Shown here: positions 8,377 through 11,231 of the stretch, piece after piece
How the letters are laid out: the number at the start of each line of letters is the position of its first letter
Position numbering within the stretch: the first letter of the stretch is position 1
From: Bryobacterales bacterium
GTDB lineage: Bacteria > Acidobacteriota > Terriglobia > Bryobacterales > Bryobacteraceae
Length of the DNA stretch: 13,958 bases
Assembly: GCA_003132865.1 (NCBI GenBank)
Contig: PKYZ01000024.1
Coordinates: 1 to 13,958 of the forward strand
Direction: 5' to 3'
The notes under the pieces: model-generated
What the model was told of the DNA's origin: nothing
The model's input: only the letters and a program-made list of their open reading frames with translations
Databases searched by the model: none
Translations under genes and position numbers: made by a program

Positions 8377-8937
8377 ATGGACCCTACTCAATCCACTCGC
8401 CGCGATTTCGGCCGCACCTTGGCCATCTCATCCCTGGGAGCGGCGTCACTGCCGCTCATCGGATGCATAAAGGGTGGCGTTAACGCGCCCACCACAGGGC
8501 AGTCGATAATCACGACAACTTTGGAGTTAATCATTCCGGCGGCTGAAACGATACTCCCGTTCATCCCTGGGTTGAATGGCGCGGAAGCCGCTATAATCAC
8601 CGCTGCCCTGAATGGGCTCGCCACCGCAGTCCCTTTTGCTGTTACCGAGTTAGCATCCACGGATACGCCGCTGGAGAGGTTCACTAAGATTTCGTTAGAG
8701 TTTGGAACGGTCGCGCTCAGTTCGCTCAACGGAAAGTTGGGCGGCGCTCCGGCAAAGGTTCTGACGATCATCACCGCCATCGCTACCGATGTGTCGAACT
8801 TCCTCGCATCGATCAACCCGCCGGCCGCTGCCGCACGAGGAGCCGCTGTGCAATTCCAGCTCACGCCTGGGGACTTGAAGGCTTTGCCTAAGATCGCCAA
8901 GCGGGCCGCTGCATTGAAGGCAAAGCTCGGTCACTAA
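8377..8937 (+). CDS. Twin-arginine lipoprotein, helical
   Basis: 186 residues from ATG 8377 with GGAG at 8368-8371. The N-terminus reads STRRDFGRTLAI, a twin-arginine (Tat) motif with Arg8-Arg9 and Phe11, then a hydrophobic segment and the lipobox LIGC with Cys30 as the lipidated residue. The mature part is Ala/Ile/Leu-rich and helical, with several hydrophobic stretches (TTTLELIIPAAETILPFIPG, AEAAIITAALNGLATAVPFA, KVLTIITAIATDVSNF), so it may associate with membrane. A Tat-exported lipoprotein in a phage is unusual. Candidate roles are superinfection exclusion or modification of the host envelope. Its neighbour is a peptidase. Function unknown; signal reading good. Confidence 0.75.
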   Translation: MDPTQSTRRDFGRTLAISSLGAASLPLIGCIKGGVNAPTTGQSIITTTLELIIPAAETILPFIPGLNGAEAAIITAALNGLATAVPFAVTELASTDTPLERFTKISLEFGTVALSSLNGKLGGAPAKVLTIITAIATDVSNFLASINPPAAAARGAAVQFQLTPGDLKALPKIAKRAAALKAKLGH

Positions 8938-8947
8938 GGAGGGCTAG

Positions 8948-9730
8948 ATGCCGATACAACGAAAATACGGGTGTAGATTCGGGCTGCCGGGGGATAATCG
9001 ATTCCCTCGGCTGGCTGTCGATCCGGCTTATCCGCCATTGTCACCGGATAAGAGCCTGCTCGAAACCGGATTTATGCCGCCGGTGTTTGACCAAATTACC
9101 ACATCAGGTTGTACGGGCCACGGCTACGCTGGTGTGTTGATGTATGCTCGCGCCAAGCAGGGGCTGCCGTTTATCGATCTATCGCGCCTTTTCCCGTACT
9201 GGAATGCACGCTCGATGGAAGGCACTTCATCTTCCGACTCAGGCGCGGTAATCGCTGATGTCATCACGGCTTCACAGCAATACGGTGACTGCCCCTACAT
9301 TGACCTGCCGACCGAACAATCGCTCGTCACGGTCGCGCCACCTCCGCAGGCGTTTACCGACGCCATTCTCCACAAGACGCTGGCAGCAACGCGCGTTTGG
9401 GGGAAGGACGCGTACGGGCTACAGTACCATGCCAAGCATGTGATCGACGTGCTCGGGCTTCCTGTGCTCTACGGGGTTACCGTATACGCGTCCTTCGAGT
9501 CCCAGCAGATCGCTGATACTGGCATCGTTCCAATGCCGGGGCCAAATGAGAAACTAGCAGGCGGCCATTGCATTTGGATTTATTCCTACGACGATGCGAC
9601 ACGGAAGGTAAGGTGCCGAAATTCTTGGTCGAAGTCGTGGGGACAGCAAGGAGATTTTGAGGCTGATTACGACTACATCTTCAACCCCGCGTACAGCTCG
9701 GATTTTCACGCGGTTACACTGGGAGCGTAG
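8948..9730 (+). CDS. Papain-family (C1A) cysteine peptidase
   Basis: 260 residues from ATG 8948, with AAGGAGG at 8936-8942. The complete papain catalytic set can be read: oxyanion Gln49 (FDQITTSGC), nucleophile Cys55 in SGCTGHGY, His207 in GGHCIW and Asn225 in CRNSWSKSWG, the family's NSWGxxWG signature. There is no signal peptide and no long inhibitory propeptide; only about 45 residues precede the catalytic domain. It is therefore probably made active, or activated in another way, in the cytoplasm or virion. Candidate roles are head/tail protein maturation, degradation of a host protein, or lysis. It is the best-defined gene of this section. Confidence 0.88.
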   Translation: MPIQRKYGCRFGLPGDNRFPRLAVDPAYPPLSPDKSLLETGFMPPVFDQITTSGCTGHGYAGVLMYARAKQGLPFIDLSRLFPYWNARSMEGTSSSDSGAVIADVITASQQYGDCPYIDLPTEQSLVTVAPPPQAFTDAILHKTLAATRVWGKDAYGLQYHAKHVIDVLGLPVLYGVTVYASFESQQIADTGIVPMPGPNEKLAGGHCIWIYSYDDATRKVRCRNSWSKSWGQQGDFEADYDYIFNPAYSSDFHAVTLGA

Positions 9731-9739
9731 GAGCGTAGA

Positions 9740-9910
9740 ATGTTTGACCACGATCGCGACAAAGACTTAAATGAGCTGATCATCGCGAAGCTCGACAAGC
9801 TCAAGGACCAGACGGATCGTATCGAACTTTCGCAGGCTCGGATCATCAGATTGCTGATGAGAACACCTGTGGCGGCAACAATGCAGTTAACCATCAACAA
9901 GGAGAAATAA
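9740..9910 (+). CDS. Small coiled-coil protein
   Basis: 56 residues, ATG 9740 to TAA 9908-9910, with GGAG at 9730-9733. Residues 8-40 form an amphipathic helix with heptad-like spacing (LNELIIAKLDKLKDQTDRIE, then LSQARIIRLLM), ending in a short polar tail. Probably dimeric; could be a scaffold, a chaperone for a neighbour or an assembly factor. No family is recognised. Confidence 0.6.
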   Translation: MFDHDRDKDLNELIIAKLDKLKDQTDRIELSQARIIRLLMRTPVAATMQLTINKEK

Positions 9911-9911
9911 G

Positions 9912-10277
9912 ATGTTAGAAAAAGTAGTCAAAGCAACTCTTGATTTGCCGCTACCGGATAGTGGTACCGGAACGGCCACCCTTTCATTCGTGGACGCCGC
10001 GGGGCTGGCCGGCGCGGTCCTTCCACCCGGAAGCGCTACAGTGTGGACTTCCAGCGACCCGACAGTTATCAGTGTAACCGGGAATGCGGACAACGTGACG
10101 GCTGCGTTTGGGCCGGCCACGCCAGTGAAGCTCGGTGTCGGTATCGTTATCAGCTCAGCGACCACACTTCCGGCTGTTGGTGCGGCTGCGCCAGTAGTCA
10201 TAAGCGCATCAGGTCAGCCGATTGACGTGATAGCTGGCGGCCCGGCTGGCGCCCAGATGGTAGAGTCGGTTAACTAG
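9912..10277 (+). CDS. Ig-like (BIG2-type) beta-sandwich protein
   Basis: 121 residues, ATG 9912 with AAGGAG at 9899-9904. The core VWTSSDPTVISVTGNADNVT (44-63) is the signature segment of bacterial Ig-like repeats (SSDxxVxxV), followed by further strands and PVVISASGQPIDVIAG. The N-terminal KVVKATLDLPLPDSG supplies the first strand. Phage Ig-like domains usually decorate capsids or tails and aid adhesion. It has no signal peptide, which fits a virion protein. The role is inferred. Confidence 0.7.
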   Translation: MLEKVVKATLDLPLPDSGTGTATLSFVDAAGLAGAVLPPGSATVWTSSDPTVISVTGNADNVTAAFGPATPVKLGVGIVISSATTLPAVGAAAPVVISASGQPIDVIAGGPAGAQMVESVN

Positions 10278-10282
10278 CGGTT

Positions 10283-10455
10283 TTGCTGGGTAGGGCGAGC
10301 CTAAAAACGAGCTTCGATCCCAGCAACGGGTGGTCTGCGACTGGCGCAGACCGTTCGTTAGAGGCTTCGGTTCGGGCGGGCAATCCGGGGGAAGGGTACG
10401 CCTGGATTGGAGCTTCTAACGAACGGATAAGCTGGCGGGAGAGAACTGCGCCCGC
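10283..10455 (+). ncRNA. Candidate structured RNA, four consecutive stems
   Basis: The region between the Ig-like gene and the gene at 10473 has no convincing coding frame. Stem 1 is TTGCTGGG (10283-10290) with CCCAGCAA (10319-10326), enclosing a small TAGG/CCTA hairpin. Stem 2 is GGTCTGCG (10332-10339) with CGCAGACC (10345-10352) and a 5-nt loop. Stem 3 is CCGTTCGTTAGAGGCT (10351-10366) with AGCTTCTAACGAACGG (10411-10426), 16 pairs including one G-U; inside it CAATCC (10381-10386) pairs with GGATTG (10404-10409), extending to nine pairs with another G-U. Stem 4 is GCGGG (10435-10439) with CCCGC (10451-10455). Both G-U pairs favour RNA of the plus sense. The call is from base pairing only. 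Confidence 0.55.
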
Positions 10456-10472
10456 GAGGGTTGGAGGGGATG

Positions 10473-10607
10473 ATGAAACGCAAAAAGAAGCCCGTGGTAG
10501 AGCCACCCGATGACATGCGCTCTCTATACGAGCCATTGAAGAGCGTGGAAGGTGAAATCGTTGGGAATTATATACTTGACTTCCCAGGGGAACTCATCTA
10601 CAATTGA
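10473..10607 (+). CDS. Small basic-to-acidic hypothetical protein
   Basis: 44 residues from ATG 10473; ATG 10470 is too close to the GGAGG at 10463-10467. It begins MKRKKKPVVEPPDDMR and ends LDFPGELIYN. A promoter for the next gene lies inside its 3' end. It is short and unrecognised, but the ribosome binding site is good. Confidence 0.5.
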   Translation: MKRKKKPVVEPPDDMRSLYEPLKSVEGEIVGNYILDFPGELIYN

Positions 10608-10611
10608 GTCA
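10576..10611 (+). promoter_or_regulatory. Strong sigma70-like promoter, leaderless start
   Basis: TTGACT (10576-10581), a 17-bp spacer and TACAAT (10599-10604). The predicted transcription start coincides with the A of ATG 10611. No Shine-Dalgarno precedes that ATG. The promoter overlaps the 3' end of the preceding gene. Confidence 0.7.
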
Positions 10612-10811: not shown

Positions 10812-11231
10812 ATGAGCAAGAGCACAATCAGCACCTTCAAGTTGTTCGAACTTTTCCCTAACGAGGAAGCGGCTCGGACGTACCTCGAAGATCGTCTCTG
10901 GCCCAACGGCCCGATCTGCCCAGAGTGCAAATCTGGTGAGTCCGTGGTTTCCCGACCTAAAGGTTTTTACCGCTGCAACGCATGCGAGAAATTCACCTTC
11001 ACCGTTCGGACGGGTACCATCTTCGGTCGGAGTCACATCCCGCTGCATAAGTGGCTGTATGCCATGTACCTCCTGGTGACTTCGCGCAAAGGCATTTCGT
11101 CCATGCAACTCGCCAAGGAAATCGGCGTTACCCAGAAGTCGGCTTGGTTCATGCTCTCTCGGCTGAGATCCAAGATGCAATTGAGGATTCGCTTCACGGC
11201 GAACAGGAGAAGCCATGAAAACGCCTCCTGA
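10812..11231 (+). pseudogene. Truncated IS1595-family transposase (zinc ribbon + HTH only)
   Basis: 139 residues from ATG 10812. Residues 5-58 match the IS1595 N-terminus: FELFPNEEAARTYLEDRLWP, then a zinc ribbon with Cys36-Cys39 and Cys55-Cys58. After it come FTVRTGTIFGRSHIPLHKWL (64-83) and the helix-turn-helix KGISSMQLAKEIGVTQKSAW (93-112). At about residue 124 (RLRSKMQ) the similarity ends in an unrelated tail, LRIRFTANRRSHENAS. The ISXO2-like DDE catalytic domain, normally about 150-200 residues more, is absent, and no IS ends are seen. It is either a decayed element or a domesticated DNA-binding fragment. In another frame the last bases read LSAEIQDAIEDSLHGEQEKP followed by a stop in an ATGA overlap, perhaps the tail of a lost phage gene. 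Confidence 0.8.

Follow-up and report, generated by a model that had tools for sequence, protein, structure and literature searches.

A probable structured RNA element behind an Ig-like gene in a phage contig, matching no Rfam family and found in one relative

Described phage RNAs and processing hairpins in comparison to the locus

The tRNA cluster of phage T4 includes the stable RNAs species 1 and 2, which are non-tRNA RNAs beside phage tRNAs, and the put RNAs of phage HK022, two neighbouring hairpins in the phage transcript, act in antitermination. RNase III cleaves double helices roughly two turns long, and its processing sites have some 20 or more base pairs in a row. In integron attC sites the R and L boxes are inverted, with AAC inside the left arm. 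The GOLLD and ROOL RNAs are, according to PMC12286853, structured RNAs of phages and prophages that often lie near tRNA islands and have Rfam profiles, with many GOLLD members longer than 800 nt.

The element described here was located in a window of 13,958 bases, the whole stretch of contig PKYZ01000024.1 that was analyzed, in the gap between the stop of an Ig-like ORF (10277) and an ATG at 10470 (Table 1). One relative, the IMG/VR phage contig IMGVR_UViG_3300014501_000013 (L002, also recorded as L003 and L004), carries the element behind the same Ig-like gene; it was reached by scanning IMG/VR for proteins encoded nearby and for patterns of the stems. Both sequences are phage contigs with phage genes, and the surroundings of the element in PKYZ01000024.1 are mosaic.

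In common with RNase III processing hairpins, the element has an uninterrupted 27-bp helix, an intergenic position in a polycistronic region, and conservation of structure over sequence, but it contains six G-U pairs and a 20-nt loop, and its cleavage is only predicted. Like the put RNAs it has two hairpins next to each other in a phage transcript and, compared by description, differs in lying behind a gene, in having no spacer between the stems, and in a much longer hairpin. The likeness to T4 species 1 and 2, as RNAs beside phage tRNAs, is likewise one of description, and in a comparison with attC made by eye the geometry of the element was reversed. It resembles GOLLD and ROOL, as presented in PMC12286853, in being a phage-encoded structured RNA of unknown function next to a tRNA, which is adjacent in L002 and absent from the window. 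Unlike those RNAs, it is about 173 nt long, consists of simple stems, and has no Rfam match.

Table 1. Coordinates of the element, its stems, and neighbouring features (PKYZ01000024.1 unless another record is named)
Feature	Coordinates	Strand	Remarks
Structured RNA element	10283-10455	+	173 nt, four stems
Stem 1	10283-10290/10319-10326	+	8 bp, interior 28 nt
Stem 2	10332-10339/10345-10352	+	8 bp, 5-nt loop
Stem 3	10352-10378/10399-10425	+	27-bp hairpin, 20-nt loop, six G-U pairs
Alternative nested stem	10381-10389/10401-10409	+	9 bp, excludes inner part of stem 3
Stem 4	10435-10439/10451-10455	+	5 bp, read from sequence
Ig-like ORF	9912-10277	+	121 aa, upstream of element
Small ORF	10470-10607	+	45 aa, preceded by Shine-Dalgarno-like GGAGGGG
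Promoter-like match	10576-10604	+	10/12 consensus bases, ahead of ORF at 10611; a shuffled region is expected to hold 0.6 promoter-like matches of any type
Base of stem 1 in L002	L002 7726-7736/7795-7805		11 bp
tRNA gene in L002	L002 7920-7991		directly after stem 3; ARAGORN; 46.4 bits with the Rfam tRNA model
Block shared with L002	7247-7765 and L002 3730-4248		519 bases, 99.8% identical
ORF beside the cysteine protease ORF	8377-8937		
Papain-like (C1A) cysteine protease ORF	8948-9730		
Coiled-coil-like ORF	9740-9910		
IS1595-type ORF	10812-11231		390 bp downstream of element
IS1595-type ORF in L002	L002 9241-9702		
IS1595-type ORF, 311 aa	L027 7447-8382	-	
ORF containing FLGDCREVLPAL	11234-11440		

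Fold of the element and pairing of its stems in the relative

The plus strand of the element folded with a minimum free energy of -90.2 kcal/mol, compared to -64.2 ± 4.0 kcal/mol for 200 dinucleotide shuffles (z -6.5), none of which reached an equal or better energy. It ranked first by z and by energy among 396 segments of 173 nt taken along the window on either strand, a set that included the element itself. The minus strand gave -63.8 kcal/mol (z -3.6). Folding of the plus strand had been proposed in a preliminary description of the sequence. All four stems which that description had placed in the non-coding gap were located. Its range of 5 to 16 bp for their sizes had to be corrected for stem 3, which is one 27-bp helix rather than 16 bp, and the two G-U wobbles it had reported for the long stems are present within those 16 bp, while the full helix holds six.

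Stem 1 is the least certain of the four, and the models leave it less firm because the best fold of the longer stretch 10278-10475 omits it. Stems 2 and 3 abut, and base 10352 is able to pair in either. A small hairpin comparable to stem 4 is present in the L002 fold, located after the tRNA cassette. In L002 the base of stem 1 is longer than in PKYZ01000024.1, its interior is also longer and unalignable, and stem 2 has 10 bp instead of 8. In stem 3, 27 of 27 pairs are formed in PKYZ01000024.1 and 26 of 27 in L002, a helix of the length cut by RNase III.

The idea that stem 3 and the nested stem represent alternative folds gained little support. The fold with a 16-bp stem and the nested 9-bp stem was 10.0 kcal/mol weaker than the 27-bp hairpin in PKYZ01000024.1 (-37.7 versus -47.7 kcal/mol) and 11.7 kcal/mol worse in L002. 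Four one-sided changes fall in the nested stem, yet its nine pairs can be formed in PKYZ01000024.1 and in L002 alike; since all four would preserve the pairing by chance in about one case in ten, by an estimate made by hand, this gives no strong support to the nested fold. With folding computed on a transcript growing in 3-nt steps, the nested stem was a predicted transient in PKYZ01000024.1 (0.67 at end 10407), compared to at most 0.10 in L002. The case for a conserved switch between two folds, as modelled here, is weak.

Covariation, named earlier as a check on the stems, was found in L002; the whole structural case consists of these two sequences, the PKYZ01000024.1 element and its one relative. 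In the arms of stems 2 and 3 the two sequences show ten substitutions. Four compensatory pairs account for eight of these, and of the remaining two, one produces a G-U pair and one breaks a pair. In stem 2, two G-C pairs changed to C-G and one G-C to G-U; in stem 3, a C-G pair changed to U-A and a G-C pair to A-U, and one further pair was broken. Simulations that placed substitutions at random, matched in number and kind, reached four compensations in 1 of 200,000 trials; two of the four observed, both in stem 2, depend on a hand-placed 2-base gap. Stem 3 alone, which aligns free of gaps, showed two compensations from five substitutions (P = 0.0032). In a MAFFT alignment with 32 pairs, two pairs had a two-sided change and 98.4% of the cells were paired, compared to 27-46% with the partner slid; a pair-counting shuffle control was matched in 129 of 500 trials, two rows giving this control little power.

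Stem 3 departs from Watson-Crick pairing at six pairs, every one a G-U when the plus strand is read, and L002 has these same six, so that a functional plus-strand RNA fits better than a DNA palindrome. Changes in stem 3 affected 5 of 54 arm positions and 3 of 20 loop positions, compared to 21 of 366 bases in the Ig-like gene, where 11 of the changed codons were synonymous and 7 nonsynonymous. No sequence block in the element was more conserved than the neighbouring gene. Because the arms changed more than the Ig-like gene and yet stayed paired, selection seems to preserve the pairing of the stems, i.e., their shape, and not their sequence. A folded RNA with stems held paired through evolution is very probably encoded here.

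Whichever of the six frames is read through the 74-base hairpin, which aligns without gaps, the changed codons were mostly nonsynonymous and no frame looked constrained; a conserved coding frame through the region, which the preliminary description had said would count against a structured RNA, was thus not found. One plus frame is open in both sequences, with 1 synonymous and 5 nonsynonymous changed codons, and matched nothing in Pfam and PHROG up to E 10.

Distribution of the element and its genomic surroundings

The element is an uncatalogued, very probably structured phage RNA that matches no Rfam family. As in the preliminary description, in which no known family was recognised, Rfam 15 gave 0 matches in the PKYZ01000024.1 stretch at the gathering threshold, and matches at a relaxed threshold were at chance level, the best ones near the element (E 0.26 and 1.1) scoring far below gathering scores. 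In L002, Rfam matches were limited to the tRNA and one at chance level, and the GOLLD and ROOL profiles matched neither the element nor L002. The literature searched, including the accessible parts of PMC12286853 and PMC2864571, yielded no description of the element.

At E 1e-5, the element matched none of the phage records searched. A query with the L002 stretch gave 18 phage records at E ≤ 1, and among the matches listed 18 of 18 lay in the tRNA part. A single weak plasmid match (E 0.2) inside a topoisomerase gene was taken as chance. In IMG/VR, three DNA patterns gave no match or the L002 contig only, and five scans with proteins or protein alignments led to L001, L002, L004, and L013-L022, among which the element was present in the L002 contig only. 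Eight pattern matches in genome contigs included the hairpin in none. Model R2, run on 13 sources, gave no hits apart from the two copies already described, the opposite strand of each, and one hit at E 3.5; of ten whole virus records it matched L002's own alone, and in genomes 0 of 4, 0 of 392, and 0 of 298, counts of little weight. With 106 bases as blastn query, 2 of 12 whole records were matched, the second by 18 bases of the right arm lying in an HNH endonuclease gene of record L019 (E 0.003 for that record, with 12 searched). This was taken as chance, and a remnant of an HNH gene was rejected, as none of the arm's 10 weak hits in phage records was annotated as HNH, some of these records having no annotation.

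Six more distant Ig-like relatives (L013-L018) contained no core words and no model match at E below 1, and the sequence that follows their Ig-like gene is a different one; in L014 and L015 it includes a hairpin plus T-run that is terminator-like by eye. Since the element is absent from these six, it is not required by the Ig-like gene. Two other candidates were discarded. A retron msr-msd did not fit, no RVT_1 domain being found in the 73.8-kb L002 record, which is possibly incomplete, or in ten Pfam-scanned ORFs of PKYZ01000024.1. An intrinsic terminator was rejected in that no G+C-rich stem with a T run occurs on the plus strand at the element; terminator-like sites numbered one per region in PKYZ01000024.1 and L002, each lying outside the element and on the minus strand.

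Between the Ig-like stop and the element no sigma-70-like match was found, and the promoter-like match behind the element suggests that a new transcript starts downstream of the RNA. With no promoter match in between, the only terminator-like site on the minus strand, and a promoter match behind, the element most probably forms the end of the transcript of the Ig-like gene.

Directly after stem 3, L002 carries a tRNA gene that ARAGORN called tRNA-Ser with anticodon AGA. Bacterial tRNA-Ser has a long variable arm, which this 72-nt tRNA lacks, and its true identity may differ from tRNA-Ser. The stem GCTGGCGTG/CACGCCAG encloses it, and 263 nt including the tRNA separate stem 3 from the next ATG preceded by a Shine-Dalgarno sequence, which belongs to a different ORF. 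ARAGORN detected no tRNA in the 13,958 bases of PKYZ01000024.1. Judged from the two sequences, this region resembles an RNA island whose inserts can be exchanged. Elsewhere in the window, the nearly identical block shared with L002, set in surroundings that are largely diverged or unalignable, suggests a recent exchange between the two phages.

The coiled-coil-like ORF is separate from the Ig-like ORF in PKYZ01000024.1 and fused to it in 10 of 18 aligned homologues; the junction of the two ORFs reads AAGGAGAAATAAGATG, so a Shine-Dalgarno-like sequence lies inside the old fusion. The cysteine protease ORF had 97 relatives in a protein search, many of them with PF00112, and the ORF beside it has an N-terminus with RRDFGR, which we take to be Tat-like. 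Downstream of the element, the IS1595-type ORF (zinc ribbon PF12760, E 1.8e-11) is cut short; L002 has a short one as well, and a 311-aa version occurs in the same phage record. The translation of a further ORF contains FLGDCREVLPAL, which resembles the beginning of a truncated DNA methyltransferase.

Possible roles of the element

We tentatively place first, with somewhat less than even confidence, the reading that the element is the 3' tail of the Ig-like transcript, kept double-stranded as a processing or stability unit in a phage RNA island. The plus strand would be transcribed as part of the Ig-like message, whose 3' untranslated tail it would form, and the tail would fold into consecutive stems dominated by the 27-bp hairpin. 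Selection on the paired form would mean that the double-stranded shape is what matters. The long hairpin might then be cut by a double-strand-specific RNase, probably of the RNase III type, or it might block an exonuclease, and the Ig-like message would thereby be separated from what follows, the tRNA cassette in L002 and the small ORF in PKYZ01000024.1. In L002, processing of the hairpin would also release the tRNA cassette. A processing or stability hairpin fits because shape rather than sequence appears to be selected.

Nearly as likely, and the main rival, is an independent small RNA of the phage, about 95-180 nt long with stems 2 and 3 as its core, which would act in trans from an RNA island beside tRNAs. 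The structure maintained with compensation, the tRNA neighbour in L002, and the different downstream genes in the two phages are consistent with such an RNA, and phage structured RNAs are known near tRNA islands (PMC12286853). However, neither a promoter match of its own nor a plus-strand terminator was found, and the element lacks the block conserved above its neighbouring gene that is usual for trans-acting or ligand-binding RNAs.

A bolder proposal, which we consider rather unlikely, is that the element represents a new class of small RNA that phages use in trans during infection. The 27-bp hairpin and the abutting 8-10-bp hairpin would form the core of an exchangeable RNA island with cassettes bracketed by GCTGG/CCAGC-type stems, the cassettes meant being the unrelated interiors of stem 1 and the tRNA, present in L002 and absent from PKYZ01000024.1.

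That the element is a leader, a 5' untranslated region regulating the small ORF, had been one of the original suggestions and now appears improbable. It lies directly upstream of the Shine-Dalgarno-like sequence and the ATG, and the 173-nt fold contains long-range pairs to 10450-10454, but searches with the small ORF returned no homologue other than itself, and it has no counterpart at the corresponding place in L002, where the RNA stands before an unrelated ORF; in this one relative, no association with a downstream gene is conserved.

A hairpin acting at the DNA level in recombination, in replication, or as the end of a mobile element would agree with the near-perfect inverted repeat, the nearby IS1595-like ORF, and the mosaic surroundings. 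The shared set of plus-strand G-U pairs in stem 3, the change of a G-C pair to G-U in stem 2, and the lack of a second copy in the PKYZ01000024.1 stretch or the L002 record make this highly improbable. A coding frame or HNH gene remnant through the hairpin, to which the frame open in both sequences and the 18-base match could point, is hardly credible in view of the predominantly nonsynonymous changes, the absence of constraint in any other frame and of Pfam or PHROG matches, and the arm hits described above.

The element adds an uncatalogued RNA structure of phages for which a single pair of relatives already gives evidence of selection on pairing. Its setting suggests that exchangeable RNA cassettes, a tRNA among them, can be accommodated downstream of a phage structural gene. 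As a separate RNA, the element would join the small number of structured phage RNAs whose role is unknown; as a processing hairpin of the Ig-like transcript, which we tentatively favour, it would provide an ordinary yet useful annotation.
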